Below are positions 11,898 through 61,673 of a stretch of 64,000 nucleotides of DNA, piece after piece. Position 1 is the stretch's first letter. Each line of letters begins with the position of its first letter. Under the pieces are notes generated by a model, which made no database searches, was not told the origin of the DNA, and saw nothing but the letters and a program-made list of their open reading frames with translations. Made by a program: the position numbers and the translations under genes. Origin of the DNA: Microglena sp. YARC (lineage: Eukaryota > Chlorophyta > Chlorophyceae > Chlamydomonadales > Chlamydomonadaceae); NCBI GenBank assembly GCA_022414725.1, contig CM039467.1, forward strand, positions 17,368,011-17,432,010, in the 5' to 3' direction.

Positions 11898-12431
11898 TTA
11901 AGGAGAAGCAGTCATTCCAAACATGCGAATGAAACGCCAGAACACCATAGGATCAAGGGGCTTGGTGAAGGGGTCAGCACAGTTGTCCTTAGTGTTAACA
12001 TAGGCAACATCCACCTGGCCATCCTCCACCAGCTCCTGGATATAGTGATGGATGACATCAATGTGCTTGTTGCGAGGGAGCAGCTGACAGTCATTGGCCC
12101 AGCTCAAGGACCCCAAGTTGTCACCCTGAATGGTGACCAGGTCACAAGGCAGCCCTAGATCAATTCTCAACTTTTTCAACCATTGCACCTCCCTGGCAGT
12201 CTGAGACAGGGCCTGATACTCAGCCTCGCTGGAGCTAACAGCAACAGTGGGTTGCCTTTTGCTCATCCAGTTCACAAGGCAGCCTCCAGCAAGCACAGCA
12301 TAGCCAGTCTGAGATCTCCTGTCAGACCCATCATCAGCAAAGGATGAGTCACTAAAGACAGTAAAAGAGAAACCAGGGCTGTGAGTGTAAGTGAGGCCCA
12401 GATGGGAATGTTCTCTCAAATACAAAAGCAA
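11898..12431 (-). CDS. Copia RNase H domain
   Basis: This 177-residue open frame is the C-terminal RNase H of the polyprotein. It shows the copia signatures DSSFADDGSDRRSQTGY, SSSEAEYQAL, KHIDVIHHYIQE and KDNCADPFTK, which contribute the acidic active site and the usual C-terminus. It overlaps the end of the RT frame by 16 bases in another frame, so one indel separates it from RT. In intact elements RT and RNase H are continuous. The domain removes the RNA strand during reverse transcription. Confidence 0.9.
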   Translation of the reverse strand: MLLYLREHSHLGLTYTHSPGFSFTVFSDSSFADDGSDRRSQTGYAVLAGGCLVNWMSKRQPTVAVSSSEAEYQALSQTAREVQWLKKLRIDLGLPCDLVTIQGDNLGSLSWANDCQLLPRNKHIDVIHHYIQELVEDGQVDVAYVNTKDNCADPFTKPLDPMVFWRFIRMFGMTASP

Positions 12432-13786: not shown

Positions 13787-13796
13787 CTCCCGCGAG

Positions 13797-14880: not shown

Positions 14881-15535
14881 GGGCACGGATCCTAGTTTTG
14901 CTTTCTTTAGGAAAAGGGATACGTTTTCCCTTTGCCTTCTGACAAGCATCACATGGGATCTTAGACAGTCTTTGCACCTGTTGGAGAGTGAGGGGTAAGT
15001 TCTGAACCAAACCCTTCCTTACAAGGTTGTGCATGGCATCATAGCCAGGGTGAACCAGCCGCCTATGCCACAACCATTCAGGAGTGGTAGGGATCACAAC
15101 TCCACCATCCTCATCAACATCAAGAGCAAAAGCTGGATAATCTTCAGCACCATACAAACGGCCACGAGGGGTGTGACAAGGCCTACATGCAAACTTGTAC
15201 ACACCACCACTGGAGGCAGGGAAAGACCACAGAACAGAAGAGCCCTGTGTGGCAGTACAACTAAGACTATCAAAAGAAATCTTGCAGTTGTGAGCATGGG
15301 CAACAGCATTTACTGACATGAGGTTCACCGGACAGTGTGGGATGTAGAGAACATTGGTTAAAGTGATTGGTGTTGGTAACCAATCACTACCTAACACAAT
15401 AGAACCCTGACCCACAGACCGTTGAACCACACCATCACCAAATTTAACTGCTGGCCCAGTCTCAGAAGCATGAAACACAGTGAACAAAGACATATCACCT
15501 GTGATTTGACATCCCAGCTCCAGAATCAACATGCC
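14881..15535 (-). CDS. Copia protease and integrase zinc-binding region
   Basis: On the minus strand the protease signature VDSGAG lies at about 15531-15514 in one frame and continues as ITGDMSLF in the neighbouring frame, so a one-base shift falls between them. Further down is the HHCC zinc-binding domain: WHRRLVHPGYDAMHNLVRKG, then IPCDACQKAKGKR. The protease would cut the polyprotein; the zinc domain is the N-terminal part of integrase. Confidence 0.8.
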
Positions 15536-17769: not shown

Positions 17770-17800
17770 AGCAGTGGTAGTGATGAGGAGCCCAATGACC

Positions 17801-18124
17801 TATCAGCTTGAAATCACTCCGGTAGAGTGGACAGTAGATTAAAGCAGCGGAACAGACGCACCAATCTATACACGGAGACAAGGATAACGTTACAGACACA
17901 GGAGACCCATAAAGGGGCACCTGTGGTGAAAGGAGGCGGTAGACAGGAACCTAACAGGGTACAGATCAGACCGGAGACGTAGGTGACAGGAAGCTGCCAC
18001 TGAGTCATCTCAAGATGACTCAGTCCCACGGGAAGCTGGCTCAGGAGAGCCGATAGTTCTAAGGGAGTACATAAGTAGTCACCAAGTCATAAAACGCGTG
18101 AGAGCACCGCTGTACATGCTGATA
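17801..18124 (-). repeat. Copia 5' LTR
   Basis: A 324-bp repeat identical to 11179-11502 except for one base noticed, with the same TATCAGC/GCTGATA ends. It should carry the promoter for minus-strand transcription. Confidence 0.9.
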
Positions 18125-30510: not shown

Positions 30511-31510
30511 NNNNNNNNNNNNNNNNNNNNNNNNNNNNNNNNNNNNNNNNNNNNNNNNNNNNNNNNNNNNNNNNNNNNNNNNNNNNNNNNNNNNNNNNNN
30601 NNNNNNNNNNNNNNNNNNNNNNNNNNNNNNNNNNNNNNNNNNNNNNNNNNNNNNNNNNNNNNNNNNNNNNNNNNNNNNNNNNNNNNNNNNNNNNNNNNNN
30701 NNNNNNNNNNNNNNNNNNNNNNNNNNNNNNNNNNNNNNNNNNNNNNNNNNNNNNNNNNNNNNNNNNNNNNNNNNNNNNNNNNNNNNNNNNNNNNNNNNNN
30801 NNNNNNNNNNNNNNNNNNNNNNNNNNNNNNNNNNNNNNNNNNNNNNNNNNNNNNNNNNNNNNNNNNNNNNNNNNNNNNNNNNNNNNNNNNNNNNNNNNNN
30901 NNNNNNNNNNNNNNNNNNNNNNNNNNNNNNNNNNNNNNNNNNNNNNNNNNNNNNNNNNNNNNNNNNNNNNNNNNNNNNNNNNNNNNNNNNNNNNNNNNNN
31001 NNNNNNNNNNNNNNNNNNNNNNNNNNNNNNNNNNNNNNNNNNNNNNNNNNNNNNNNNNNNNNNNNNNNNNNNNNNNNNNNNNNNNNNNNNNNNNNNNNNN
31101 NNNNNNNNNNNNNNNNNNNNNNNNNNNNNNNNNNNNNNNNNNNNNNNNNNNNNNNNNNNNNNNNNNNNNNNNNNNNNNNNNNNNNNNNNNNNNNNNNNNN
31201 NNNNNNNNNNNNNNNNNNNNNNNNNNNNNNNNNNNNNNNNNNNNNNNNNNNNNNNNNNNNNNNNNNNNNNNNNNNNNNNNNNNNNNNNNNNNNNNNNNNN
31301 NNNNNNNNNNNNNNNNNNNNNNNNNNNNNNNNNNNNNNNNNNNNNNNNNNNNNNNNNNNNNNNNNNNNNNNNNNNNNNNNNNNNNNNNNNNNNNNNNNNN
31401 NNNNNNNNNNNNNNNNNNNNNNNNNNNNNNNNNNNNNNNNNNNNNNNNNNNNNNNNNNNNNNNNNNNNNNNNNNNNNNNNNNNNNNNNNNNNNNNNNNNN
31501 NNNNNNNNNN
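30511..31510. other. Assembly gap (1000 N)
   Basis: Exactly 1000 N, a round number that suggests a scaffolding placeholder, not a measured gap length. Content changes from host-like repeats to virus-like genes across it. Confidence 0.98.
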
Positions 31511-31816
31511 GAGAGGATAAACGCACGCACGGGTGGCGGATGTCACGACGCACTGCCTCTACACAGCCTTACAACGCGAATTCTCTCTCTGTCCAACTGC
31601 GACCTCATTCCAATGCGCCGAACAAAACCAAGAAATTCGCTGCCCCCAAAACGTGGTGGCAAATGCATTTGTTCAGGCCAAAAAAATGGGGGAGACGTTG
31701 ATTCATTTTTTGTTCGTCACCAGTGTACGAAGACAGTATCGCCAAACGAAGAAAAAGTCCATGATCGACACTTTGCAATTAGTGTGTTGGCAGGAGGTAT
31801 TTTGTGCAATGGGTCT
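31511..31816 (+). pseudogene. Unknown protein fragment, duplicated at 37430-37690
   Basis: The segment matches 37430-37690 with many indels: both share the ATGCGCCGAAC start, a GTGGTGG stretch, GCAATGCATTTGTTCAGGCC-like sequence and ATCGACACTTTGCAAT. Here one frame reads on from MRRTKP through KRGGKCICSGQKN. No family recognised. It is cut by transposon sequence at about 31817. Confidence 0.45.
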
Positions 31817-34538
31817 GCAAAGACGCACAGTGTCTGATATGATTTCCTTAGCATTCAGCACCTCACAACTGATTAATCATTATGTTGTTTGTTGACCACG
31901 GTATGGAACACGTATGCTGAGTTTGTATAAAGTTCGGTGTGATGTATAAATTATGTAAGATGGCAACGTAAACGCTCACGAGCATCCGAAATTGAGGAGC
32001 TACTAACATTGGCCGAAGTAGCATACTCCATCAGAAGGCACAAGAAGGACGATATTGTCCTTTATGCAAAGACAATGGTCTCATCGCCAGACCCCTCCAG
32101 AATACAAGACGGTGGAAAAGATGTTGTGTAGTGAAATGCGCCCTGAAACGAGGCAATGAGTCTTGACGATGAAGAATTCGGTAAGTTTAGTGGAGCATGT
32201 GGATCAGCTCGTCATGGTGAGCCGATGTTGTCGGCCGTTTCCATGTCTTGGTGCTGACTTTCTCTATGTCACGTGCAGGCTCATGGAGGGCGACCTGCCG
32301 ATTCTAATATGTATCGATATGAAGACCTAACGGAAGGATTGGCTAAGGATCGGCAGTTGACGGGTGTTCTTCCCAGATGAAGGAGAGTAAAATAGTCATA
32401 CGAATCCGTGAGAAAGACGTAAATCGGAAAAGGTGCTTGGTACGATGACACCTGAACTACATTCAACTCCCTACCTAATCTATTTCGGACAGGTTTGCAA
32501 CTTGGCCGGTCACCACATGCGCCCACTGTCGTGTCGAACAGACGTGCATGGGTTCCTTTGTACCCCACGTTTCCTCGTCTGACACGCTTCATAAGGCTAC
32601 TTGAATGCAACTGAAGAAGCTCCGAAGACCATTCCTGTGTACGACGTTGATTGAGGGTTATCCAACAAGAAATACAGGAGCATGAATCTTGGCCAGCAGT
32701 CTGTTCAGGAGTATGTCCGTCGAAGTTCGAGTCAGGCTGTAAGTTCCAGATGGAAGTCGCTTTATGATGACTATGGCAAAGACATGGACTTCCGACCATG
32801 GTCCGTTTTCAATTATTGGATGCATGACACGGTTGGAGGCTAATCTGGTGCACGTCATATCCGGTTGATGCCCATCTTTAATGTCCAACCGGGGCATGTC
32901 CGCCTTCGACATGAGAGACCCTCGTTGAACCTATCAGGCACGTGTTCCCCAAGACCCAAACATCGTCGAGCTTTTCAAAGTGGAAAGAATGTAAAGGATC
33001 CCGACGCTGTTCATTGGCCTGTCTGAAGCCTGTCAGTTAAGAAGAAAAAAATCATGTGGTCTTTTCTGGTGAAATGCGGAGGCATACAAGTGGCCCACAG
33101 AAGTAGATGCTGACGTTAATGATATCAAGGATACTGACGAGTACATACATGCAAAGGAGGTATACAACGCTCTGTGAACGCTCTCGAAAAAAAGTCGCAG
33201 GTTCTTCTTCAAGAAACCACCTGTCAAGAGGGGTGGGTGTTCGATTTGTAGCATCTGTACTGACGGAGTCTCATTGAAGCATAGCAGTACAGCAGGACAA
33301 GTAGAGTTCGTGTATCCGATCTGAAGAGACAAGTAAGAGGTCTCCGTAGACGATGAAGGTATGAGCGTCTCAGACAGTAATGACCGATAAATCCTGCAAA
33401 AACGACATTGCCCGATATGGGTATCGTCGTTCTGGGTGTGGAAGTCCTGGTAGGAAGTCAAACATCGCTACAGTCAAGTATCTGGCAGACGAGCAAATAG
33501 CAAGACATGAAGCTGCACGCGGAGGCTTTTTATCACAAGTCTGGTAATCAAGAAACCAGAAAAAAACAGGCAAAGATAAAAGTTTCTCAAACATGATTCC
33601 TAGGATGGGAGTTCTCTTCGTCGAAAATGGAGCAGCGTGAGTACATCCAGGGACAGATGATAATCTCGCTTACTTGAAAAATTACGCTACGTTTTTCCGA
33701 CGAGTGGGTGGAGATGGCACTCTTGCACAGATGATCCAGAGACAATTCAGAGGTACATTGGTAAGCGCAAGGCTATGGACTCATTTTGGGCAGGGATCAG
33801 CGCAACAATGTAAGTTTGGATCATCCTGAACCTGAGGTTTCGCGCGTGAGCATATGGTTCTGCGAATCACGAAACCTCTGAAGGCTACCCGGACGCAGGA
33901 GAGGTAGCTTGTGCCTACGGGATCTATGTTTCGCTTCCTGCAAGCGCTCTTCTTCAATAGAGGGAGGTTCATGTGACAGATGAGTTCAGCGACTCTCCAT
34001 GTTCTTGGGAAACGGTGCGCAAGAAGGAATGTGTTTACAAAATTCCAAGTGTACCAAATAACCACGGAAGGGCAAGATTCGTCTAGGTTACGAGTTGTGT
34101 GGGTCACCGAACGCCCCAAATTGAAGGAGACTCCCCAATGTCTCTTATCTGCGACCAGTTGGCGGTGAGGGTCGTACTGCACACGTAAACAAATCCAAGA
34201 AAAACACTAGGAGGGGGTGGCTTAGACCCCATTCTTCTTGTCGACACACTCGAATCAAGGGTACCTGAGGTACGAGGACTGCGATTCTCTCCAGAAACCA
34301 GACTTCATCGGACCGGGACCGCTCCTCTGCTCTCACAATCGCAAGCTTGTCAACTATGCATGGAACTGTTGGGTCAAAGGGAGACGTCTTTCCATTTAAC
34401 TGCAGGGCTGCGTGGATTGTTGATCGTGGCTCAAAAAAACATGATGTTTCCACTTGCCCCGTTGGGTTTGCTACATCCATAATGTCCGTCACACTCCAGA
34501 CAGCGGTTTTCATTTTTAGTATTCCGTCGAGTTTGTAG
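31817..34538 (+). mobile_element. Degraded second copy of the Fanzor-bearing mariner element
   Basis: Collinear with about 52410-55050 of the better copy: the transposase C-terminus (GTGTCTGATATGATTTCC), the nuclease gene, and the right inverted end (ATTTTTAGTATTCCGTCGAG at about 34515). It is 5'-truncated, starting within the transposase. Substitutions and one-base indels are so dense that no long frame survives. It still shows DRDRSSALTIA near 34308-34340, matching the RuvC-III segment of the other copy. Whether this is decay or poor sequence cannot be decided here. Confidence 0.8.
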
Positions 34539-34599
34539 GAATATGCAAATATTAAGTGGGGGATAAAGACTTGCGGGCAATGCGTCACAAGGGAGGTGC

Positions 34600-36470
34600 A
34601 TGGGCTCGTAGTTAATAATAAATAATGAGTTGGGATTTATAAAAGGCTATAGACCATTTTATAATAAAATTATAAATAACCTATCAAACGCATCCTGTGC
34701 GCCTTGCATGGCATTTGGTACACACAATGTTTTCTAGAAACATGCATTCGCACTATAGATTTAAGTGGTCATCGAATCGAGTCGTTAATCCTACGCTTCT
34801 CCATGTACATTTCTTTGATTCGTATGCTCCTATTAATCTTCCAAACCCCAAGATTTGTATTAGTCGTGTAAAACTCTGTAGCATAAAGATTCTGGATGGC
34901 CCGCTTACCGACTGATCCAACCACCACACTACGAGTTTGGAGAGACTTATGGTCCGAAAGGGGGGCGCACGCGACTTCTATGCTAGTATGCTTGGTGTCC
35001 AATCCTCTTGTCCAAGGGTTAAGGGCGTACAATTGCAGGGCGAACCAAAATGAAAACATAGATTCTCTATGTGGTGCCAAGGCCGGTCACGCCGATGTCT
35101 GCAAGCTGCTGATGGATCCAGAGGTGGCTGGACTGTGATTCAAGGGCCCCTGGCGAACTCTGCTGCAACAGCTTGGCATTTGCGTGAGGCTTGTGCGCGA
35201 TTGTAAGTCACGCAGATGTCTGCAAGCTTCTCATGGATCCAGCCGGTGGCTGACTGAGTTCAGGGCCCGGGCGAACGTGCTAGCGACATGCCAGTCGTCC
35301 TTGTGGCGGCTGTCCAAGGCAGTCACACAGATGCTCTGCAAGCTGCTGATGATTCAGAGGTTGGCTGACATTGGAGATTCAAGGGCCAGGGCGAACGCAG
35401 CGCACAGCTTGGCATTGTGGGGGCCGCTGCTGAGAGAAGGTACACGCAGTGGTCTGCAAGCTGCTCATGTATGAATTCCATGCGGTGGCTGGACCTTGAG
35501 TTCAGCGGCCCGGCGCGACTCTAACCTGCCAGCAGTGGCCTTGTGGCGCGGCTGTCCAAGGCAGGTCACCAGATGTCTGCAGAGCTGCTCATGGTCCAGA
35601 TGGTGGCTGGACTTGAGTACAGGGTCCAGGGCGACTTAGTGGACAGCATGGCCCTTGGGTGGGCGGCTGCCATGGCTGGTCCGCGGGGCGCGGAGAGAAT
35701 GTTGCAAGCTTGCTTTCGATGGATGCCAGAGGTGGCTCGGAAATTGAGTTTCAGCCGGTCCTATGGCGCTAATCTCTAGCGATAGCATGGCATTGTGGGC
35801 CGCTGCTAAGGACGGTCCGCAGATGTCTGCAATCTGCTGATGGAATCCAGTGGTGGCTTGGAATTGAGTTCAGGCTAGGGGAACTCTAGCGACAGCAGGG
35901 CCTTCGCGTGAGGCTGCAAAGGCAGGTCACGCCAGATGTCTGCAAGGCTGCTATTGGATCCAGAGGTTTGCTCGAATTGAGTTCAGGGCTGGGCCGAACT
36001 CTAGCGGCATCAGCAGGGAGCTTGCGTGAGGCTTGCATAGGCAGGTCACGCAGATGTCTGCAAGCTGCTCATGGATCGCCAGAGGTTTTGCTGGAATTGA
36101 GTTCAGGGCCCGGGCGAACACTCTGTCAACAGCTGGGCATTGCGGCTGGCTGCTAAGGTTAGGTCAGCAGATCTCTGCAAGCTGCTGATGGATCGAGGGT
36201 GGCTGGAATTGAGTTCAGGGCCAGGGCGCTACACTTTCGACAGCAGGGCATTGTGGGCGGTCTGCCCAGCGCAGGTCACGCAGAATGTCTGCAAAGCTGC
36301 TGATGGATCCGAAGGTGCGTGGAATTTGAGTTCAGGGCCCGGGCGAACTCTAGCGATAGCAGGGCCTTTGCGTGAGGCTGCGAAGGCTGGTCACGCAGAA
36401 TGTCTGCAAGCTGCTGATGGATTCAGCATGCGGCTGGCACCGAGTACAGCTGAGTTGAGACAGCTCAACG
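34600..36470 (+). pseudogene. Degraded F-box/ankyrin-repeat gene (plus-strand copy)
   Basis: This is an inverted, error-rich relative of the minus-strand gene at 38618-39970. The CCAATCCTCTTGTCC segment near 35000 matches 39604-39625 in reverse. From 35080 a unit of about 105-110 bp is repeated around ten times, encoding AGHADVCKLLMDPEVAGIEF-like ankyrin repeats in shifting frames. Ankyrin arrays bind proteins; with an F-box they usually recruit targets to SCF ubiquitin ligases. As read it is not translatable. Confidence 0.65.
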
Positions 36471-37458: not shown

Positions 37459-38189
37459 CAATGCGCCGAACGAACCAGAATTCGCCCCCCCGTACACACA
37501 CGTGGTGGGTGGGCAATGCATTTGTTCAGGCCAACAATAAAAATGGGGAGACGTTGATTTCATTTTGTTTCGTCACCGAGTGTAGAGACATATAGACAAA
37601 ACGGAAGAAAAAGTCCAATGATCGACACTTTGCAATATAGTGTGTTGCACGGAGTATTATGTGCACTGTCTTGGGTCCTGCAGACAGTGTCCGGTTGGAT
37701 CATGAATCGAAATCTCTAACCATTCCGTTATGAGTTTGCGGCAAGTCTTGAGACTTTTGATCAACAATACTACGGGAGCGATTGAAGGAGGCTTGTTTGG
37801 TCACTATTACAAGCTGGTATTGTGTTGGAGTCAAAAAAATACACTTGCCAGTTCCATATCGAGCGCCGAATATCGATGATAACATTCACCTACAACAGAT
37901 AAGACTGTTACACGAATGTGATTATTTCGTCATGGGTGGCACCTGAAACAACGATGTATCGCTTTCAAGCTTTGATTAGGGAAACTGTGGTCAACAACAT
38001 GAAGATGTTTTGGAGAAGTCTTCGACAGGTACATCATCCATACAAATGCAGCGGCTGCAGCGAAAGGGCAATCGCCCAACAATCCGTGCGAAGAAGATTG
38101 AAAAACATTTCGCTAGATGTGCCGAACAATTATCACGAGTCGCCCAAACCATGAGTTCAGATACTACAGTCGACGGAATACTAAAATGA
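37459..38189 (+). pseudogene. Unknown gene, frameshifted, ending in a transposon inverted end
   Basis: It starts with the same ATGCGCCGAAC as the fragment at 31612. Conserved-looking pieces occur in different frames: KEACLVTITSLYCVGVKKI near 37790, NIDDNIHLQQIRLLHECDYF near 37870-37930, then a CSxCSE pair and KHFARCAEQLSRVAQT near 38100-38150. The last codons are supplied by the mariner inverted end (TVDGILK, then stop). At least four frame changes are needed. The close CxxC pairs hint at zinc binding, but no family is assigned. Confidence 0.4.
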
Positions 38190-38192
38190 AAC
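38164..38192 (+). repeat. Mariner-type inverted end (solo)
   Basis: CTACAGTCGACGGAATACTA followed by AAATGAAAC is the same sequence, in reverse orientation, as the right end of the element at 51930-55048. No partner end was found next to it. Confidence 0.7.
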
Positions 38193-38235
38193 CACCTCGT
38201 GTACGACACACCTTACGGTGTAGCAACCCACGGGG

Positions 38236-45838: not shown

Positions 45839-47092
45839 AGCTTGGTTTTACATAAGCGCAAACCCCAACATCACGTGGGATATTATACGAGATAATCCAT
45901 TAAACTATGATTACAGCGGAAATAAATAGCCACATCTCGAGACGGGTCAAATGTATGGAACACAAGTGGGATTGGTGGTTATTGAGTTATAATCCATGTT
46001 TGACGCGTGAAGTTATCGAATGCTATCCAGACACAAACCATGGAATTGGTACTGGTCAGCAGAAACCCCTTCATAACATGGGATATTATACAAACCAACC
46101 CAGATAAACCATGGGACTGGCGTGGATTGAGCGCAAACCCAAATTTCATATGGGATGTTATTAAAGCCAACCCTGATAAACAATGGGACTGGCGTGAATT
46201 GAGCGCAAACCCACATATCACATGGGATATGATACAAACCAACCCAGATAAACCATGGGATTGGTATAATATCAGCAAAAACCCTTGCGTCAAATGGTTT
46301 ATTGTCAAAGCCAACCCCGACAAACCATGGAACTGGTGTGGATTGAGCGCAAACCCCAGCATCCCATGGGAGATTATACAAGACAACCCTGATAAACCAT
46401 GGGATTGGTTTTTTATGAGCAAAAAACCCAATATCACATGGAATATTATACAATCCAACCCAGATAAACAATGGAATTGGACCTGGATCAGCGCAAACCC
46501 CAATATCACTTGGGATGTTGTACAAGCCAACCCTGATAAACCATGGGATTGGTACTGGATCAGCGAAAACCCCAATATCACATGGGATATTGTGCAATCC
46601 AACCCCGACAAACCATGGAATTGGACCTGGATCAGCGCAAACCCCAATATCACTTGGGATATTATACAAGCCAACCCCAACAAAAAATGGATTTGGTACT
46701 AGGTCAGCAGAAACCCCAACATCACATGGGATATTATCCAAGCCTACCCCGACAACCCATGGGATTGGTACTGGATCAGCAAAACCCTACATATCCCATG
46801 TGATATTATCAAAGCCAACCCCGACAAACCATGGGATTGGCGTGGATTGAGCGCAAACCCCAATATCACGTGGGATGTTGTCGTAGCAAACCTCGATAAC
46901 CCATGGAATTGGTATGAGTTGAGCTCAAACCCCAATATGTTGTTATCTACCCAAGACATTTGCGATATCATACGTAGATGTAGAGCAGCAAGAACCATTC
47001 AGAAAATATGGCGATACGTCAATACAAACCCGAGTTATAATGTATGTCAACACAGGCTCTTTAGGGAATATAATGAAATGGTTTATTATTAA
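45839..47092 (+). CDS. Tryptophan-repeat protein 1 (frameshifted)
   Basis: Repeats of about 22 residues of the form NPNITWDIIQANPDKPWDW plus a LS or IS segment run from about 45990 to 46930, with about a dozen copies. The longest frame is 46007-46702; the start (MITAEINSH at 45907) and the end lie in other frames, with shifts near 46040, 46700 and 46790. A solitary relic of one repeat sits upstream at 45845-45905. The C-terminus (to 47092) has RAARTIQKIWRYVNTNPSY, an IQ-like helix typical of this family. Such Trp-repeat proteins are abundant in Nucleocytoviricota genomes. Function unknown. Confidence 0.8.
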
Positions 47093-48213: not shown

Positions 48214-48390
48214 GCCACATCATGCCACCAGCCATGCAGTGCGTGCAAGCGTACAGTCACCAATGCGGTCAACATTGAATGCGTTTCCGCGATACAGTCA
48301 GAGACAGAATTTGTGGGACACCCTTACCGGTGACCCTTGAACACAATTGATTGGGTAGGTTGAGGCGGGTTTTTACATCGGTGACACTTA

Positions 48391-48554
48391 ATGGGCGTTC
48401 CTGCCTCCCGGCCGATTTTTTTAAATTTATAATCAGGATTTAGAGCCTCCTGAACGACTCGCTAGCTTGAGACATCAGCACCAAGGAATCACAAACCCGC
48501 TCCATACCATGTTTCGCAACCAGTCAAAATCGTCCGGGAGGCAGGAACGCCCAT
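48391..48554. mobile_element. 164-bp MITE, copy A
   Basis: Terminal inverted repeats of about 28 bp start ATGGGCGTTCCTGCCTCCCG and end in the complement, flanked by TA at 48389-48390 and 48555-48556. The internal part includes GAACGACTCGCTAGCTTGAG. It has the same length as copy B at 57613-57776, with the inside reversed. TA targets point to the Tc1/mariner (Stowaway-like) class. Confidence 0.85.
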
Positions 48555-48589
48555 TACTTGTCGCAGAGGGTACTGCCAACGCGGCAAAC

Positions 48590-49083: not shown

Positions 49084-49431
49084 ATGAAGTCGGATTCATT
49101 ATTTGTCTATGCGCGGTTGTTGAATGACCGTCAACCCCTTGAAGTCATTGAGATGCCAACTGTTTTTTCAATTGCAAGCTCTGGTATTGGTCTTGGTCTG
49201 GGTCGATATGCTCGTGTGGTTACACGTGCCAACAGGTTTTGCATATTTGCCAGGAGCCGAGCATTATTACAAGGTGGAACTGGATCCTTCAGCATTGACA
49301 AAATAGACATCCATTTGGAGAATTCAATTCGATACAGGGATATTCCGGATGTCCATGTTGGAGCTCGCCGGTTGAAGATCGAATGCCACGGTGTACATGA
49401 TCTCGATACAGTCAACGGAATACTAAAATGA
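49084..49431 (+). CDS. Unknown protein ending in a transposon inverted end
   Basis: 115 residues. The middle is strand-rich in appearance (TVFSIASSGIGLGLGRYARV, SFSIDKIDIHLENSIRYRDI). The final codons TVNGILK and the stop come from a mariner-type inverted end at 49404-49431, so the original C-terminus is probably replaced. No family recognised. Confidence 0.45.
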   Translation: MKSDSLFVYARLLNDRQPLEVIEMPTVFSIASSGIGLGLGRYARVVTRANRFCIFARSRALLQGGTGSFSIDKIDIHLENSIRYRDIPDVHVGARRLKIECHGVHDLDTVNGILK

Positions 49432-49560
49432 ATCCGCTTCGTGTACGGAACACCTTACTACTACAGTCGGCGGAACAGTAAAATGAAACATATATCAGAT
49501 ATATCAAATGTACGACATCGCCGTTAGAAAATTGGCGTTAAGAATGGTCGCTGACTTGAC
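49404..49560 (+). mobile_element. Two adjacent mariner-type ends
   Basis: A right-type end (ACAGTCAACGGAATACTAAA, 49408-49427) is followed at about 49461 by a left-type end (CTACAGTCGGCGGAACAGTA). The left-type end continues for about 95 bp with sequence equal to 51927-52025 (including the start of the transposase gene) and then diverges. It looks like a heavily deleted element. Confidence 0.65.
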
Positions 49561-51274: not shown

Positions 51275-51688
51275 ATGCACCCTTGGTGGAGAATACCTTC
51301 ACGATACCTAGAATCTTATGAATTCTGGGGGGTTTACAACACATGTTACCGTCCCGAAGATGGATATTCCTGCCATGTGGTTACCGTGCCTGATGTGCGA
51401 TGTGCGATTGGCGCCGGAGGCACGATGGAGGAGGCATTTGAAGCTGCCAAGGAAAAGCTGACAGACATGGTCAGTGACATCATGTACCGCGGTGAGGCCA
51501 TTCCAACGCCATCGCCTCCCGTCGAGATCATCGACGGCAGACAAATAATGACAAATGATTGGAATGTCGCCGGCTTTGTTGTGACTTTCGTGGGTGTCGT
51601 GCGTGTTTCCACACTGCCAAGTTTACGGGAAAAGGCCCGTATGCCACAAGATTTGGTCAGATTCCATCACAATATTGAAGACGAGTAG
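51275..51688 (+). CDS. HicB-like domain protein
   Basis: 137 residues. From about residue 29, GYSCHVVTVPDVRCAIGAGG then TMEEAFEAAKEKLTDMV and GEAIPTPSPP match the HicB/UPF0150 pattern: a strand-rich 'Y.v.vPD..g....G.t.eEA' core, a helix, and 'g.piP.P'. In bacteria HicB neutralises the HicA mRNase; no HicA-like partner is visible here. A possible upstream extension in another frame (51140-51320, KKRKARQ-type basic sequence) may be its true N-terminus if a frameshift lies near 51320. Its role in this context is unknown. Confidence 0.55.
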   Translation: MHPWWRIPSRYLESYEFWGVYNTCYRPEDGYSCHVVTVPDVRCAIGAGGTMEEAFEAAKEKLTDMVSDIMYRGEAIPTPSPPVEIIDGRQIMTNDWNVAGFVVTFVGVVRVSTLPSLREKARMPQDLVRFHHNIEDE

Positions 51689-51854
51689 AAAAAAACTTGG
51701 TCTCATCCATCCTCTTGTGTATCCACATTCGAAGTGAAGACACACGTACACGAAAACGGTATTTAGACCCTTCTTTTCAGATCCGAGAAGCTTGGGTGTG
51801 CAGGGTTGGGAGGGGGGATGTTCCATCATCATGCGCTTCAATGTGTGCGATATA

Positions 51855-51927
51855 ATGGGCGTTCCGGGCTCCCGGCGGATTTTTTTGAAATTTCTACTCA
51901 GAATTTAGAGCCTCCGGAACGACTCGC
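51855..51927. mobile_element. Truncated MITE (third copy), split by the mariner element
   Basis: Begins ATGGGCGTTCC after TA (51853-51854) and runs collinear with copy A up to GAACGACTCGC, exactly where copy A has TAGCTTGAG. The Fanzor-bearing element starts at that TA. The remaining half is not clearly recognisable after 55050. Confidence 0.65.
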
Positions 51928-51929
51928 TA

Positions 51930-51955
51930 CAGTCGGCGGAACAGTAAAATGAAAC
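51930..51955 (+). repeat. Left terminal inverted repeat
   Basis: CAGTCGGCGGAACAGTAAAA plus TGAAAC. Related copies occur at 49463, 59628-59653 (reverse) and 61612. Confidence 0.8.
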
Positions 51956-51974
51956 ATATATCAGATGGAAATAA

Positions 51975-52519
51975 ATGTACGACATCGCCGTTAGAAAATT
52001 GGCGTTAAGAATGGTCGCTGACTTGGGTGTGTTAAAAACTTCTGTGTTTACGAACATCAGTCGTTCTACTCTGTGGAGATGGAAACGCTTTGGTGTAAAT
52101 CGAAAACGACGTGAATTTGTAAGCAAACTTTTTGAGACGAACAAAGAGTTGTTGAATTTTTTTTTATTGTCAACTCAATGCAAGGATCTGTGAAGAAGAC
52201 GGACTTCGCTGCATTTATTGACTCTTTGAGTTTGTGCAATAATTCAGTAGTAATAATGGACAACGCCAGTATCCATAAGAACTTGGTCCTCAGAAGCCCC
52301 GTAAATATTTGTTACACTCCTCCTTACAGTCCAGAATTCAATGCTATTGAGCTGTGCTTCGCTAAGGTGAAGAAGGACTTTCGTCGATTGAACTATATAC
52401 CAAACGATACAAAGACGCACGTGTCTGATATGATTTCCTTAGCATTTAGCAACCTCACTGATAAAATCATTATGGGTTGTTTTGACCACGTATGGAACAC
52501 GTATTTGATGTTTGTATAA
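51975..52519 (+). pseudogene. DDE transposase, internally deleted
   Basis: The first frame (from MYDIAVRKLALRMVADLGVL) contains a helix-turn-helix with ISRSTLWRWKRFGVNRKRR for binding the ends. A second frame has VKKTDFAAFIDSLSL, VVIMDNASIHK (second catalytic Asp) and YTPPYSPEFNAIELCFAKVK (Glu of the DDE triad), typical of IS630/Tc1-like transposases. The stretch with the first catalytic Asp is missing between them (near 52160), and the frames differ. As read, the enzyme could not be active. The C-terminus ends at the stop in 52517-52519, 33 bases before the nuclease start. Confidence 0.8.
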
Positions 52520-52551
52520 AGAGTTCTGTGATGTATAAATTATGTAAGATG

Positions 52552-54927
52552 GCAACGAAACCTCCGACAGTCGCGAAATTGAAGGAGCTACTAAAATTGG
52601 CCGAAGTAGCATACTCATCAAAGGACAAGAAGGACGATATTGTCCGTTTATGCGAAGACAATGGTCTCATCGCCAGACCCCCTCCAGAATACAAGACGGT
52701 GGAAAAGATGTGTGTCGTGAAATGCGCCCTGAAGAAGGCAATGAGTCTTGACGATGAAGAATTCGGTAAGTTTAGGGAGCATGTGGACCAGCTCGTCAAT
52801 GTGGTGAGCCGCATGTTACGGCGGTCCAGTCTTGTGCTGACTTTCCACATCACGAGTCTATTAGAGAAAGGTCTGGATATTCCAGACCTGTACAACATGA
52901 AAGATACCTACTGGAAGGATTGGCTCCGTATCGGGGTAGACGGAATCTTCCCTGATGAGGAAAGCAAGATATCGTACGAAGCTGTGAAGGACTCCATCGG
53001 CGATGTAATTGGTAATGACGACGCTGACTACATCAAGTCTTATCCGATCTATTTCGATCAGGTATTGAACTATGCAGGTCACACATTGAGCACTGTCGTG
53101 TCAAACAACGCATGGGTTCCTTTGATACCACGTCTGGCCAGACTCACTTCCACCACTTTAAATAAATTAAATGCCCCGAAGACGCTGGACACATCGAAGA
53201 TCATTCGGGGATACGAAGTGATGCAGGCTATTCAGCAAGAAGTCCAAAACATGGAGGGATGGCCAGAGTCTGTTCAAGAGTACGTCAATGAAGTTAGGGA
53301 GATGCTGAGTGTTCCAGATGGAAGTCGAGTTTATGATAACTATGGCAAAGACATGGACTTTCCGACCATGGTCCGGTTTAATTATTGGATACAGACACGG
53401 TTGGAGGATATGGATGCACGTCGTATCCGATTGATGCCCATCTTCAATGTCCAACGGGTGCATGTTCGCCTTGACCTGAAGACCCTCGTGAACCTGTTCA
53501 GGCACATGTTCCCCAATGACCAGAACATCGTTGAGCTTTCCAAGTGGGAACATGTAAAGAATCCCGACAGCTTCATGTTGTCCCAGAGGCCAGCACAGAA
53601 GAAGAAAAAAATCATGTGGTCCTGGTGAATGGGATGCATACAAGTCGGTCATGAAGCAGTACGATGATGATGTTAAGGATATCAAGGCTACTGACGAGTA
53701 CAGACATGCAAAGGGTTTGTATGACACGCTTGTGAACGCCCGAAAAAACAGTCGCAGGTTCCTTCTTCAGAAAACCACCTGTCAAGAATGGGTGGGTTTT
53801 CGACTGCAGCATCTGTACTGACGGAGTCTCCTTGAGCATGCAGTACAGCAAGACAGTACAGGTCCTTGTCTCAGATCTGAAGAAGACCTGTAAGAACCCT
53901 CGTAAAGAAGAAGGTATCAAGATCGCAGAAAAATACGACGGCTCACTTAAAACGATATTGCCCGATATGGGTATCGTCGTCCTGGGTGTGGACCCAGGAC
54001 GGAGCAACATCGCTACGGTAACGTATTTGGCAGACGATAAAAATAAGACATGGAAGCTGACACGTGGTGCATTTTACCACAAGTCGGGTATCAAGAAGCA
54101 GACAAGCAGAAGGAACTGCGTTTTGCTGACATGATTCCTGTGTGGGAGTCTCTGCGTGAAAATGGAGCAGCTTTGAGTACATCGAGGACGGATAAGATCT
54201 CCGCGTACTTGTCAAATTACGCTAAGTTTTCTGACGAGTGGTGGAGATTGGCTTTGCGACGCCGAGAATCCCGTGACAACTTGCAGCGTTACATCGGAAA
54301 ACGAAAGATAAAAGACTCTTTCTGGGCGGGTATCAAGCGGTGCATGATGAAAGAACTTCCTGATATGAAGGTTTGCGTGGCCTACGGATCTGCCATCACG
54401 AAACTGAAGCCTACTGGACCGGGAGAAGTTGCAGTTCCCACTGGGGCCATGTTCGCATCGTGTAAAAGAATTTTCAAAGAGGACGTTTCTGTGACAGATG
54501 AGTTCAAAACGACTCTTATGTCTTGGGAGACGGGTAAAGAAAAAGAACGTGTTTACAAGATCCCAAGTGTTTGTTCAGCAGACGTGAAGCTTAGGTTGGG
54601 TGGTGAACGTTTTGGTCACACGAAATCGAAAACGATGCCAAAGGTCGCTGATTGCGACCACTTAGGGGTAAGGTTGTACAATAAACGTAAAGGCGCACAA
54701 GAGAAGCACAGGAGGGGTGGCTTCGCCACTTCCCTTGTCGATTCTCAAAAATCGATCGAGCGGTACCCAGAGGTACGAGGACTGCGATTCTCTCCAGAAA
54801 CAGCATTTACTCGGACCGGGATCGCTCTTCTGCTCTCACAATCGCAAGGCTGCACTGCATGGAATTGATGGGTCTAGGACGACCTCTTCCATTTGCCCAC
54901 AGCAGCTCTGTTGTTGTTGATGAATAA
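52552..54927 (+). CDS. Fanzor-type RuvC nuclease (TnpB relative), frameshifted
   Basis: The N-terminal frame (to 53628) opens with a SAP-like helical segment (TVAKLKELLKLAEVAYSSKD, about residues 6-25). After frame changes near 53610, 53755, 54090 and 54790 the RuvC parts follow. RuvC-I is VVLGVDPGRSNIA, with Asp at 53991-53993, preceded by CTDGVSLSM. The alternative RuvC-II glutamate is in VTDEFKTT (54500-54502). RuvC-III lies in SDRDRSSALTIARLHC (candidate Asp at 54814 and 54820). The zinc-finger cysteines are not clear. Fanzor proteins are RNA-guided DNA endonucleases of eukaryotic transposons. The shift near 53755 is absent from the degraded copy at 33200, so that one is specific to this copy or an error. 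Confidence 0.8.
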
Positions 54928-54928
54928 A
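54923..54928 (+). promoter_or_regulatory. AATAAA polyadenylation signal
   Basis: AATAAA overlaps the nuclease stop codon (TAA at 54925-54927). Processing here or shortly after could still leave the following hairpin in the primary transcript. Confidence 0.4.
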
Positions 54929-54937
54929 AACTCGTAT

Positions 54938-54981
54938 TGTTGTAGACACCACTCGGTCCCCCTCCGGTGGTCGCGACAACA
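54938..54981 (+). ncRNA. Candidate omega (guide) RNA stem-loop of the Fanzor element
   Basis: TGTTGT (54938) pairs with ACAACA (54976). ACCAC (54948) pairs with GTGGT (54967). CGG (54954) pairs with CCG (54964), around a TCCCCCT loop, with one bulged T and a 4 x 4 internal loop. It lies 10 bases after the nuclease stop and about 40 before the right inverted end. Known TnpB and Fanzor guide RNAs derive from this 3' region, with the guide reading beyond the element end. Guide-RNA identity is inferred from position and fold only. Confidence 0.45.
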
Positions 54982-55022
54982 TTAGGTTACACCGCAAGGT
55001 ATACCGTACACTCCCAAAAGCG

Positions 55023-55048
55023 GTTTCATTTTAGTATTCCGTCGAGTG
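55023..55048 (-). repeat. Right terminal inverted repeat
   Basis: GTTTCATTTTAGTATTCCGT plus CGAGTG, followed by TA. Matching solo ends occur at 34515, 38164 and 49408. Confidence 0.8.
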
Positions 55049-55154
55049 TAGCCTGAAAAACATTAAAACGTTAATTGACTTACATACACCATGCACTGGG
55101 CTTCTCGATGTAAAGCTTGGGATTTTCATTGAAACGCTTGGGATGTGAAGCAAA

Positions 55155-57197
55155 GTGCAGGGGAGTTGCGTTCTGCGAAGCACATGCGCACTCGATCTCT
55201 TTTTGGGAGGGGAATCTAATGTAGAAACAATCCAATCGATTATGTATAAAGTGAAAACGATAATACAAGGCATTACTAAGACAAATCACTCAGGTAGTAT
55301 GGGCACTGAAGACAATACGGGATCATCATTTACCTCTGCTACTGCTTCTGATGCCCCCATGAAAAAGGGGCAGGATCTCGATACACTCGTGCAGAATCTG
55401 AGCATCCGTGTGCATCCGCACGGGGGGCACAGCATATACACCAAATACGGTCAGGAGGAAATCGACCAGTACAAGATCCAAAACGTGTCAGAGACTAAAA
55501 AGACATTAGACTCGCAGCATGGAAGGAATGTGGACTCCCTATACAATCTCGTGGACATTCTAGACGCACAAAGAGCCAGCGGATACGATTCATGGCTGAA
55601 GGTCGGGATGGCGCTGAAGAATACAGTCGACGCAGGAACCGACACTCAGCGCCTCAATATATGGAAGTCTTTTGCAAAAAAATGCCCCTATAAGTTCTGT
55701 GACACCAAGCACGAACATGTGTGGGCAAATCTGAAGCCGACAAATATCACTCTAGGGACACTCCGCTTCCTTGCCAAGCAGGATGACCCGATGGGGTACG
55801 CCGAATGGATCCTAAAATGGGACAACGCCAACAAACAGGGCGAGGAAATCGACAAGGATCGCATCATCAAAGACCTCAAGGTAAAGCTAGAATTGGCAAT
55901 TGACAACATGGTATCATTGAATGTCGTAAACGATAGCATCGAGTTCAAGATTGACAACGGAGCGAAAGGAGCCATCCACAAGAACAAATACATGGTGGAG
56001 GTAGATGAAATATATTATGGATCGATGATCGACAAGTTCCCAATCCATGAAGACCCAGGGTTCATCAAGAACGTGCCTATCGACCAAGGACCATTCGAAT
56101 GCGAGCTGCGGACCATGGATGGCAAAACAATTAACAGTGCCATCTTGAAGAGCACCGACGGCTTGCAAATCGCATTAATGAATATGGGAAGTGACAACCA
56201 ATACGTAAATGTGAGATCCAACACGAGCAACGCAACTATCCGAGACAAGCAGGTCATCAACACAATCCATAACATGATCTTCAAGGCGCAAGAGTCCCAC
56301 GCGAAGAACATGTACGGGATCACGCAGAACATCTTCCTGGTCAACACCATCAACATCAACATGAAGAGGGGAGATGATGATGATGATGATGACTCGTTTT
56401 CGTCATCAATCAAAGAGGATACGTTGGCGGAGAAGTTCATGGAGGCCGCACCAGAATTCTTCACCAGAATCAAGTGTGTGCCAAAACTCAACAGGAAAGA
56501 ATGCGTAGGTGACATGTACTACTGCGACCCTGCTACCAATCGCTGGTCGAACTTAAGCAACTTGATGATAATCAAAGTAATCAAACTCGAGTTCAAATCC
56601 AAATTCCCTGCTAAGAAGAATAACAAGACGAATAAGAAGATTCGGGGGTTTGTCGACACGGTTAAGGGGCGTTCTGTGTTACTTCAAGCCATCGCACTTC
56701 TCGTCCTAGACGAAACGTTCACCGATAACCTCGATGTCAACCCTGACCTCTTTGCGGTCAACAACGGTGTATTTGACAGCTTGTCGAGGGACAACGTAGT
56801 TTTCAGAAACGTAGAGATTACCGACAATATTAGCAGGTGTGCGAAGTGGGATTACCAGGGAGAGGAGGACACACACAACCTCCAAAGATGCATCTTCGAC
56901 AAACTACCGGTATCGATGACCGAGTGGAAGTCTGGTATTGCGGACAGCGCCAACCCCCTTGCCGAGTGGCTCGAGGAGGTGGTGGAGGTGACGGGGGAGT
57001 GTTCGGACGTGGTGTGGGCCGGGGACCTCAAGGCCCGGTGGATAGAGTCCCACTATGGACCCGCGGCAGCAGTCTTCAGCAACAGACTGGTCAAGGCATT
57101 CTTTTCTGGAAAACAGGGAATCGAGTGGAAAGATAGTGCAAGAATCGATACAATATGCAAAAAGGGAGTGATAAGGGGGTGTAAAATTGTTGGTTAG
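55155..57197 (+). CDS. D5-like primase, SF3 helicase core missing
   Basis: 680 residues from the first ATG; ATG at 55299 (MGTEDNTG) is equally plausible. A PriCT-2-type segment is at about 126-207 (SGYDSWLKVGMALKNT, then IWKSFAKKCPYKFCDTKHEH). Later comes the D5_N region with MYYCDPATNRWSNL (about 456-470) and NPDLFAVNNGVFDSL (about 530-545). The C-terminal domain has NPLAEWLEEVVEVTGECSDV and WAGDLKARWIESHYG. The SF3 helicase with Walker A/B motifs, expected between them, is absent: only about 40 residues separate the regions, in frame. D5-type primase-helicases start and unwind DNA in large DNA viruses. The N-terminal primase (AEP) domain is also not seen. Confidence 0.75.
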   Translation: MQGSCVLRSTCALDLFLGGESNVETIQSIMYKVKTIIQGITKTNHSGSMGTEDNTGSSFTSATASDAPMKKGQDLDTLVQNLSIRVHPHGGHSIYTKYGQEEIDQYKIQNVSETKKTLDSQHGRNVDSLYNLVDILDAQRASGYDSWLKVGMALKNTVDAGTDTQRLNIWKSFAKKCPYKFCDTKHEHVWANLKPTNITLGTLRFLAKQDDPMGYAEWILKWDNANKQGEEIDKDRIIKDLKVKLELAIDNMVSLNVVNDSIEFKIDNGAKGAIHKNKYMVEVDEIYYGSMIDKFPIHEDPGFIKNVPIDQGPFECELRTMDGKTINSAILKSTDGLQIALMNMGSDNQYVNVRSNTSNATIRDKQVINTIHNMIFKAQESHAKNMYGITQNIFLVNTININMKRGDDDDDDDSFSSSIKEDTLAEKFMEAAPEFFTRIKCVPKLNRKECVGDMYYCDPATNRWSNLSNLMIIKVIKLEFKSKFPAKKNNKTNKKIRGFVDTVKGRSVLLQAIALLVLDETFTDNLDVNPDLFAVNNGVFDSLSRDNVVFRNVEITDNISRCAKWDYQGEEDTHNLQRCIFDKLPVSMTEWKSGIADSANPLAEWLEEVVEVTGECSDVVWAGDLKARWIESHYGPAAAVFSNRLVKAFFSGKQGIEWKDSARIDTICKKGVIRGCKIVG

Positions 57198-57612
57198 ACA
57201 CGATTGAGGCTTTAGCATCATCATCCTCGTCGAACATCGTCCATCTGACGCGATCGAACACACGCCGTATTTCGAACCCTCGTACACTCGTAGACGAGTA
57301 TAAACAAGTCAGCGTACTCTTATTCACTAACTGACAACAGCACACTTCTTTATTCGATGCATTCACGGTACTGATGCTGAGGGACGAGACGGTCGAGCAA
57401 CGCCTTGACATCGTGGACACGGATGGTCTCATTGGCGGGGACCGTCCTCAAGTTCCTGTGGAAGGATTATGTCCCATTACAGTCGGACACATCTCGTCCA
57501 CAATATCAGACTTCCACTCTGTCATATAATGGAGTGGAAGTCTGATATTGTGGACGAGATGTGACGTCTTGTCAGCTTCAGTCTTCAACACCAAGCTGGT
57601 CAATGGTATTTA
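57198..57612. other. Intergenic interval with a 32-bp-arm hairpin
   Basis: 57488-57519 and 57532-57563 are perfect 32-bp inverted repeats with a 12-base loop. The right arm begins GAGTGGAAGTCTGATATTGT and resembles 56922-56945 of the primase gene. Minus-strand open frames from 57432 overlap the gene end and show no family. Confidence 0.8.
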
Positions 57613-57776
57613 ATGAGCGTTCCTGCCTCCCGGCCGATTTTGACTGGTTGCGAAACATGGTATGGAGCGGAATTGTGATTCCTTGGTGCTGATGTATCAA
57701 GCTAGCGAGTCGTTCAGGAGGCTCTAAATCCTGATTATAAATTTTAAAAAATCGGCCGGGAGACAGGAACGCCCAT
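57613..57776. mobile_element. 164-bp MITE, copy B
   Basis: Same termini and length as copy A, internal sequence in the opposite direction, flanked by TA at 57611-57612 and 57777-57778. Differences from copy A are few. Confidence 0.85.
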
Positions 57777-58238
57777 TATTTGTTCTTTGTTCTTTGCGGG
57801 CAAACAATAGAATGCAAGAATCGATAAAGGGGTGTCAACTTGTTTCACTGTACACGTACACACGCAAACGGAGGAACACAACACTCACTGTCGACGACGA
57901 TCGAAAAACATCTGAGTACACACGCAAAGAGAGGAGGAACACCAATGTCAGCCAATTAATCAGACTGAATACACAAGACACGCACGCACGCACTCTATCA
58001 CGACACATCATGCCGCATCCTCACATGCCGAGGCGGAGGCTTTCGCATACTCCTCGTCCACACGACACCACGGTGGCTTGCGCAGCCTCATCAATGCTCA
58101 TATTTATACAAGAGTCATAAAATGAAACCGCTTCGTGTTTAATAATGGTGTAGAAATCCACGGGGCAGTAAACATAAACCATACAAGTATAAACATATAA
58201 CTTCCATTCAATCATAAATCACCATTACACAACACGGC
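57777..58238. other. Intergenic interval with repeated modules
   Basis: Contains GGTGGCTTGCGCAGCCTCAT (58073-58092, also at 47157) and ATAAAATGAAACCGCTTCGT (58116-58135), which also follows the solo mariner ends. No gene recognised. Confidence 0.5.
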
Positions 58239-59284
58239 ATGAAGTCTGTTATTTCTACTGATGAGTTAACCGATCATATATTGAGGCGTCTCAAATGCGA
58301 AGAATGCAAATGGATTTTTGGGGGGTTGAGTTCTAATCCATGTTTAACATGGGGTGTGATACTCGCAAATCCTGACAAGGCATGGGATTGGAATGGTTGA
58401 GCAGAAAACAGATCATTACGTGGGAGATTGTCTCGAGTAACCCTAACAAACAATGGGATTGGGGTGGGTTGAGCATGAATCTCAACATCACTCAGGACAT
58501 TGTACTCAACAATCCTGACAAAATGTGGGATTGGTATTGGTTAAGTAGAAATCCATGCACTACGTTGGGTATGGTGTTGAGTTACCCATACAAAAAATGG
58601 AGTTGGTATTGGTTGAGTAGCAACCCGAGTATTACTTGGGGCGACGTACAATCCAACCCATATAAAACCATGGGATTGGAATATGTTGAGCACAAATCCT
58701 AACATTACATGGGATATTGTACAAACCAACCCACACAAACCATGGAAATGGATAGGATTAAGTATGAACCCTAATGTCACAATGGACATTGTACTCAACA
58801 ACCCAGATAAACCATGGGACTGGATATGTTGAGCAGAAACCCTAACATTACATGGGATATTGTACAGAACAACCCAGATAAACCATGGGATTGGATTGTA
58901 TTAAGCATGAACAAAAACATCACTAATGACGTTGTACTCAGTAACCCAGATAAACCGTGGAACTGGTATTATATCAGTACAAACCCGATCGTTACGTGGG
59001 AAATAGTACAAGCCAACCCAGGGAAATCGTGGGATTGGCGCGGGTTGAGTAGAAACCCCAACATCACGCTTGACATTGTACTAGAAAACCCAGATGAAGC
59101 ATGGGATTGGCGTGGATTGAGCACAAATCCCAACATGTTAATTAGCGACAAAGAAATTTATGGGATAGTGAAAAGACGTGAAGCAGCTATAAAGATACAA
59201 AAAAGTTGGAGACATGTAAATACCAACCCTATGTATCTAGTGTGTCGGAGTAGACTCTTGAAAGAGTATAATGAACTCATATAG
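58239..59284 (+). CDS. Tryptophan-repeat protein 2 (frameshifted)
   Basis: It starts MKSVISTDELTDHILRRLKC at 58239 and then has about a dozen repeats of the NPNITWDIVQNNPDKPWDW type. One-base shifts near 58395, 58666 and 58820 break it into four frames. The last, clean frame (58814-59284) ends with REAAIKIQKSWRHVNTNPMY and LLKEYNELI, the same IQ-like C-terminus as the protein at 45839-47092. The two are paralogues of the Nucleocytoviricota Trp-repeat family. Two of the shifts fall in TGGA(A)TATGTTGAGC-like sites. Confidence 0.8.
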
Positions 59285-59507
59285 GTAGGGTTTTGACCCC
59301 TTCAGAATTATTAGAGAATATAATGGAATAACAGGGTTTTCAGAGCGGAGAAGATTATTAGAGTATTATATAATATTGCAAAACGCCTGTGTCAGATGGT
59401 AATAATATATTTGAGTTCGCACTCAATTGCCCCCAATCCCATGGATTATCGGGGTTTGTTTGAACAATGTCAAAGGTGATGTTTGGGGGAATCCCAAATT
59501 CTGAAGC
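59285..59507. other. Intergenic interval
   Basis: AT-rich, with CCCCAATCCCATGGATTATC (59432), which looks like a reversed Trp-repeat fragment. No gene. Confidence 0.4.
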
Positions 59508-59653
59508 GACTGATGTTCGTAAACACATAAGTTTTTAACACAATTCAGAAACCATTCTTAACGCCAATTTTCTAACGGCGATGTCGTACATTCTTATTTA
59601 TTTCCATCTGATATATGTTTCATGTTTCATTTTACTGTTCCGCTGACTGTAGC
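59508..59653 (-). mobile_element. Mariner left-end fragment, reverse orientation
   Basis: Reverse complement of about 51927-52062: the inverted end plus the first codons of the transposase, including GATGTCGTACAT and CTGATGTTCGTAAACAC, with an inserted segment around 59545. Truncated inside the transposase. Confidence 0.7.
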
Positions 59654-61590: not shown

Positions 61591-61622
61591 ATAGGAACGA
61601 CTCGCTACAGTCGGCGGAACAG
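61591..61622 (+). repeat. Solo mariner left end
   Basis: GGAACGACTCGCTACAGTCG plus GCGGAACAGTAAA, including the same 11 bases of MITE-like flank (GAACGACTCGC) seen at 51917. No element follows. Confidence 0.65.
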
Positions 61623-61673
61623 TAAAGTTGTATACAGGATGGACACAAAGACCGTATCGTAGTACACACCTTT

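Follow-up and report, generated by a model that had tools for sequence, protein, structure and literature searches.

A probable Fanzor1-lineage transposon of a branch without the C4 zinc finger

The window, a stretch of 64,000 nucleotides from contig CM039467.1 of Microglena sp. YARC, contains at positions 51928-55050 a TA-flanked element that is very probably a decayed Tc1/mariner-type (IS630 superfamily) transposon, no longer self-mobile, carrying a gene for an RNA-guided nuclease of the Fanzor1 lineage, from a branch without the C4 zinc finger. Inside the element, a helix-turn-helix remnant is followed on the same strand by a DDE_3 transposase core and by the Fanzor-like pieces. A preliminary description had recognised TA-flanked related inverted ends, IS630/Tc1-type transposase motifs, and a mariner/IS630-type element with a Fanzor1-lineage protein exhibiting the alternative RuvC-II glutamate, all of which are borne out by the results below. 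It had also stated that Fanzor1 is known in mariners, which is correct: such elements, including viral and virus-integrated ones, have been in print since 2013 (PMC3627910), so its headline is not new. The absent finger, a missing transposase segment, a second copy, further ends, and the same transposon link at two distant loci go beyond that description.

The assignment to Fanzor1 is based on profile, fold, and residue conservation. Sixty-one relatives were found; as the search that gave 40 of the listed hits scored the 7993 candidates sharing most words, the family comprises at least that number. Thirty-five of these, mostly the longer ones, were aligned (alignment A3). The family profile search matched the Guillardia Fanzor1 with an E-value of 1.4e-9. 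The fold model was made from P0031, a near-identical protein of 792 residues found on an ENA contig of 3177 bases, and this protein is 98% identical to segment 1 of the window gene and 100% identical to segment 5. The seven best PDB matches of the model are all Fanzor1 structures, and the predicted fold is that of Fanzor1. The model exhibits two helices, 547-568 and 571-602, which are candidates for the kinked REC2 pair. All 35 aligned rows exhibit DPG at RuvC-I, the alternative RuvC-II glutamate (Ealt), and the third RuvC aspartate, and the TDG motif in the WED (T423, D424, and G425) is invariant. In P0031, the predicted residues of the D-E-D triad are D481, E651, and D758, and the window has GVDPGR in the segment 53745-54113. 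In a tree of the 35 family members and window segment 1, the latter groups with P0031 (100/100).

Pfam returned nothing above its cut-off for eight members scanned or for P0058, and no E-value below 0.0033 for the 35 members; a weak N-terminal HeH/LEM match, below the Pfam cut-off, is observed in three of the 35. NCBIfam gave sub-cut-off chance matches in five members, and PADLOC gave no match for the five window pieces submitted. Among 40 listed relatives, P0033 and P0035 bear a precomputed PF26935.1, which was absent when the same proteins were rescanned by Pfam; this annotation weighs against a plain claim that Pfam misses the family.

Absence of the zinc finger

According to Bao and Jurka, the Fanzor motif includes a strictly conserved C4 zinc finger (PMC3627910), and the RegEx search of PMC10711439 requires it, while the same paper states that "many" TnpBs and Fanzors have the finger. 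Between RuvC-II and RuvC-III of the present branch, the finger is absent: no CxxC pair is found between the RuvC-II glutamate and the last aspartate in 34 of the 35 aligned rows. P0058 is the sole row with two CxxC, arranged as a C4 finger should be. As it keeps the finger, it is also the only protein in which the spacing expected of Ealt can be read: the glutamate precedes the first zinc-finger cysteine by six residues. A single C-x(2-5)-C pair is observed in P0052, P0054, and P0055, and most rows hold one to three isolated cysteines in this interval. Over the 35 rows, the interval from this glutamate to the last aspartate measures 64-139 residues, and two rows are about as short as SpuFz1 (65 residues, E541-D606).

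Judging from these sequences, the simplest reading is that the finger was lost within this Fanzor1 branch. In the tree, P0058 joins P0054 and P0055 on long branches, which the program flagged as possibly false, so the direction of change is read from the presence of the finger in other Fanzors. Among the literature matches listed, no title concerns a finger-less Fanzor branch; that literature is partial, and we make no claim of absence from print. Within the same partial literature, we met neither the recurrence of such a branch with similar transposon ends nor several copies clustered in a single virus-like stretch. Since the finger is required both by the motif published for Fanzor (PMC3627910) and by at least one pattern search in print (PMC10711439), these would overlook a finger-less branch, to which 34 of the 35 members examined, out of 61 relatives found, belong. 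If active, this branch would show that RNA-guided cutting can do without the finger, and P0058, with the finger, and the remaining members, without it, form a natural series for probing its role.

Ends, target site, and decay of the element

A repeat search found inverted arms of 30 nucleotides at 51926-51955 and 55023-55052 with 87% complementarity. Counted from the TA at 51928-51929 and at 55049-55050, the left terminal inverted repeat (TIR; 51928-51955, forward strand) and the right TIR (55023-55050, reverse strand), recognised by the inverted-repeat search and by comparison of the ends, are identical at 24 of 28 bases. The 75 bases left of the element correspond to the left half of a repeat of about 170 bp, at 88-89% identity, up to the TA itself, which supports a TA target on this side. 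Uninterrupted copies of this repeat, at 48389-48556 and 57608-57779, read CTCGC-TA-GCTTGA at the insertion point. The right half of the repeat was looked for right of the element, and nothing was found past about six bases after 55050; the right flank has therefore been rearranged or is part of something else. The TIRs and the TA target duplication are those of the Tc1/mariner (IS630) superfamily. The repeat of about 170 bp is itself MITE-like (miniature inverted-repeat transposable element), with palindromic ends; its two full copies are 95% alike and in inverted orientation, and the third, a half copy at 51853-51927, is cut exactly at the TA of the Fanzor element.

The transposase is reduced to two remnants on the forward strand. 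The N-terminal helix-turn-helix part (51975-52193) matches HTH_23 with an E-value of 7.4e-4 and 19.7 bits, below the Pfam cut-off of 24.6, and is 33% identical over 67 residues to an intact transposase from another locus (L002, see below). The DDE catalytic core (52178-52519) matches DDE_3 at positions 56-141 of 146 (E-value 3.9e-14) and is 45% identical to the L002 transposase over 112 residues. The segment with the first aspartate was looked for in all three frames of 51928-52560 and was not seen, so that the triad is incomplete, with the second aspartate and the glutamate present. The transposase of the window copy is dead. The second aspartate and the glutamate are 29 residues apart in the window and 30 in L002, short of the spacing of about 34-41 residues usual in mariners.

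Compared with P0031, the Fanzor gene is covered by five forward-strand segments with four frame changes. Segment 1 (52549-53610), comprising a weak N-terminal HeH/LEM match (HeH E-value 0.0011, below cut-off) and the REC region, is 98% identical to residues 1-354 of P0031. Segment 2 (53564-53746), in a shifted frame and overlapping segment 1, is 79% identical over 61 residues (339-399). Segment 3 (53745-54113) has the TDG of the WED and the DPG with the first catalytic aspartate (97%, residues 399-521), segment 4 (54086-54802) has the alternative RuvC-II glutamate in TDEFKTT with no CxxC pair downstream (96%, residues 513-751), and segment 5 (54805-54924) has the last catalytic aspartate in DRDRSSALTIA and a GRPxPF end (100%, residues 753-792). 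The three motifs named in the preliminary description, GVDPGR, TDEFKTT, and DRDRSSALTIA, are therefore present, but they lie in three different reading frames of a split gene. With four frame changes in the Fanzor gene and a transposase lacking the segment of its first catalytic aspartate, the window copy is decayed and no longer self-mobile. As P0031 is unbroken and near-identical, an uninterrupted Fanzor copy exists elsewhere.

Further copies in the window and at distant loci

A second copy, comprising a transposase end and a Fanzor gene, lies at 31818-34397 (forward strand) beside a gap of 1000 N (30511-31510), in which its left end would lie; its right end is found, by end matches, at 34486-34535 (reverse strand). 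It is 77% identical to the main copy over 2665 columns, with 356 mismatches and 217 gap events, mostly of single bases, and with nine mismatches in the first 400 columns. The many single-base gaps and the few early mismatches indicate a stretch of poor base accuracy, which makes the true divergence uncertain. Single-base gaps are also numerous in the repeats at 31511-36400, where base accuracy is probably poor.

Five further ends are found. Isolated right-type ends lie on the forward strand at 38165-38193 (27/28 to the right TIR) and 49407-49461 (25/28). The latter abuts an isolated left end with a transposase start at 49462-49558 (forward strand, 96% over 99 columns), and another such left end lies at 59503-59651 (reverse strand, 85% over 153 columns). 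The fifth is a 21-nucleotide left-end remnant at 61606-61626 (forward strand, by end matches); the 12 bases before it are also those that flank the main element, so that the junction looks copied. The second copy and these five ends share the same 32.5 kb with the main element. Matches of at least 20/28, including a weaker end at 39586 (20/28), number nine in 31511-64000, two of them being the main element's own, and none in 1-30510, where one match appears at 19/28 (11618). Sixty first-order Markov controls of the right part gave a mean of 0.03 and a maximum of one match at 20/28 or better. A shorter pattern of 14 bases with up to three mismatches gave 16 matches, five of them exact, against 10.3 expected; seven of 100 shuffles gave as many, so this count is not above chance overall.

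GTDB genome contigs were scanned with A2, which matched 78 stretches, and two loci were confirmed. L001 is a complete element of 2670 bp that contains a Fanzor gene only. Its inverted ends, which start with TA, are perfect over 31 nucleotides including one flanking base, and they are the two best matches to the window ends in the whole contig (23/28). About 82 hairpin-containing bases (L001:764-845), either an intron or a small insertion, break the otherwise open Fanzor frame of L001. L002 exhibits a left end that matches the window end at 21/28, the best match in its contig, and an uninterrupted transposase open reading frame (ORF) of 333 residues (L002:236-1237) matching DDE_3 at 2-138 of 146. 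A Fanzor-like stretch follows the transposase in the same order and strand and stops at most 41 bases from the contig end; no right end was seen in L002. The link between Fanzor and transposon thus recurs at two distant loci whose ends resemble those of the window element (23/28 and 21/28), and it is not an accident of this window.

Right end and possible mode of action

The non-coding stretch at the right end (54925-55050, forward strand), including the TIR, is, by analogy with published Fanzors, the expected place of a guide (omega) RNA scaffold. Compared with shuffles, folding of the window copy gave z-scores of -0.97 and -1.24 without the TIR, which are not significant, and of -1.82 and -2.32 with it, and the right end of L001 behaved alike (-0.73 and -2.97). 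A conserved RNA hairpin, hinted at by eye in some right ends, received no support from folding against shuffles without the TIR and was rejected.

In an intact relative, the transposase would bind the ends of about 28 nucleotides and cut and paste the element into TA, as suggested by the ends, the TA, and the DDE core observed here. By analogy with published Fanzors, the protein would bind an RNA transcribed from the element's right end and running on into the flanking DNA, and the last part of this RNA would act as the guide. Once the element has left, the guide would match the vacated donor site, which would be cut; repair would then copy the transposon back or favour chromosomes carrying it. 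In this branch, the cysteines of the finger, expected between the second catalytic residue and the third, are gone, and the segment is mostly longer and has no CxxC pair; since the D-E-D triad is kept, the finger-less nuclease would be expected to work without that zinc.

Surroundings of the element

A D5-type primase-helicase adjoins the element at 55155-57197 (PriCT_2, 1.6e-14; D5_N, 5e-4, just below cut-off). Its 39 relatives are 48-97% identical, and 36 of them are EukProt gene models with one naming style. These relatives are a multi-copy viral family in one or a few eukaryotic genomes, and they suggest a eukaryotic genome, the window's own or a close one, in which such insertions are numerous. 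The virus-like DNA around the element is probably part of a eukaryotic genome. The giant-virus hallmark genes are those for the capsid, polymerase B, the packaging ATPase, and the D5 primase-helicase. Outside the element, 31 ORFs of the right part were scanned (9 + 22, a part of all ORFs). Among them, the D5-type primase-helicase is the only hallmark seen, with no capsid, polymerase, or packaging gene; ankyrin repeats, C2H2 finger repeats, and one HicB-like domain were observed. The latter, an antitoxin match (1.1e-7), belongs to one of the 22 ORFs, taken from its letters as 51275-51688. Scans of IMG/VR, from which records very near the window may be excluded, gave no relative of the Fanzor, the transposases, the ends, or the primase.

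The right part is joined to the left part through the 1000-N gap. The CpG observed/expected ratio is 0.87 in the right part, 0.51 in the left part, and 0.99 in the element. As the left part is uneven, with several stretches at 0.6-0.88, and as TpG/CpA is no higher there (1.23, against 1.26 on the right), methylation is not shown to be the cause. The virus-like context of the element is thus partly supported: the viral setting proposed in the preliminary description holds as a virus-like tract, given the primase-helicase, the ankyrin repeats, and the CpG ratio, but a giant virus is not distinguished from another large DNA virus element. The link that it drew between cellular transposons and viruses as carriers of the nuclease was overstated, with 36 of the 39 primase relatives being EukProt gene models and no relative in IMG/VR.

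Two further features were noted. The left part contains a Copia-type retroelement (11179-18100, RVT_2), with identical repeats of at least 300 nucleotides at 11179 and 17801. Tandem repeats of 24 residues (72-nucleotide spacing) occur at 45984-47003, with the core NPDKPWDW, and at 58392-59129.

Alternative explanations

Several results weigh against a Fanzor1-lineage nuclease in this element. Single-sequence searches of the PDB found no Fanzor at an E-value of 1 with the C-terminal piece of the window gene and none at 10 with P0058; with P0001, a Fanzor was reached at no better than 0.097. Profile searches score bacterial IscBs about as well as the Spizellomyces Fanzor. The branch fails the finger that Bao and Jurka call strictly conserved (PMC3627910), and Pfam Cas12f1-like_TNB touches P0058 alone, below cut-off (E-value 0.014). 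Without the TIR, the right end folds weakly, and no Rfam family is above cut-off anywhere in the window; the guide RNA is putative, and the activity of a finger-less Fanzor as a working nuclease is a prediction. A Fanzor2 or TnpB of an IS607-type element would share the RuvC core, which is common to both, but this is extremely improbable, as the partner is a DDE_3 transposase instead of an IS607-type serine recombinase, and the fold is nearer to Fanzor1. Could the protein be a Fanzor1 descendant that is no longer an RNA-guided nuclease, its finger lost as it took on a different role, for instance in binding DNA or in regulating the transposase? The absence of the CxxC pair from 34 of 35 members and the weak, sub-cut-off HeH/LEM N-terminus in three of them, which is DNA-binding-like, would fit such a shift; we nevertheless consider it quite unlikely, as the complete D-E-D triad and the DPG in all 35 members are hard to explain without catalysis and the whole Fanzor1 fold is predicted.

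The frame changes could instead be assembly errors, with the Fanzor copy intact in the organism. In-frame segments 96-100% identical to P0031, the short second segment excepted, and the single-base gaps of the second copy beside the N gap are consistent with this. However, the adjoining primase ORF matches P0065 over about 1.7 kb without a frame change, and a whole transposase segment is absent in all three frames, a loss that single-base errors do not explain; we consider this alternative somewhat unlikely. A question of origin also arises, namely whether the transposon entered the genome inside a viral genome, the surrounding 32.5 kb being an endogenous large DNA virus. We give this close to an even chance. 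It would account for the restriction of all nine end matches to the right part and for the CpG contrast, and it agrees with the adjoining primase-helicase, whose relatives reach 97% identity, with the ankyrin repeats, and with fold-level kin in giant viruses. In contrast, the two parts meet through the N gap, the CpG contrast is uneven and unaccompanied by a TpG/CpA difference in the left part, the scanned ORFs gave no capsid, polymerase, or packaging gene and IMG/VR no relative, and the elements could also have jumped in after integration. Returning to the decayed Fanzor1-carrying transposon, we tentatively extend this reading, at somewhat below an even chance for the whole, as follows: an entire Fanzor1 branch may have shed the finger and may carry out RNA-guided cutting without zinc, perhaps with an extra HeH/LEM-type DNA-binding module at its N-terminus; it may ride a transposon that targets TA, has a short D-E spacing, and multiplies in virus-derived DNA of eukaryotic genomes, and finger-based searches would have missed this branch.

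Comparison with known systems

The closest published layouts are PGv-1 from Phaeocystis globosa virus, HMa-1, and PUl-1 (PMC3627910), which, like the window element, combine a mariner-type transposase and a Fanzor1 in one TA-flanked element with TIRs. The viral setting of PGv-1 and the virus-like flanks of HMa-1 extend this likeness. In contrast to the present branch, the C4 finger is described as strictly conserved in that paper, and PGv-1 also carries a gene for a GIY-YIG-domain protein, no counterpart of which was seen in the window element. L001 is similar in layout to the Fanzor1 element of SfAV (PMC10711439), which is a Fanzor1-only element with TIRs; the DNA transposon family of the latter is called unknown there. 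With the characterised Fanzor1 nucleases SpuFz1, GtFz1, and PpFz1 (PMC10432273; PMC11423790), the family shares the predicted fold and the D-E-D triad, the third residue being N in GtFz1, and the TDG is present in the aligned stretches of SpuFz1 and GtFz1. Identity in the VIA alignments is about 14-16%, and the 65-residue interval of SpuFz1 contrasts with the wider range of the family and its general lack of a CxxC pair. Saito et al. found no transposase inside the ends of Spu-1 (PMC10432273; PMC11423790), whereas the window Fanzor has a transposase as its neighbour.

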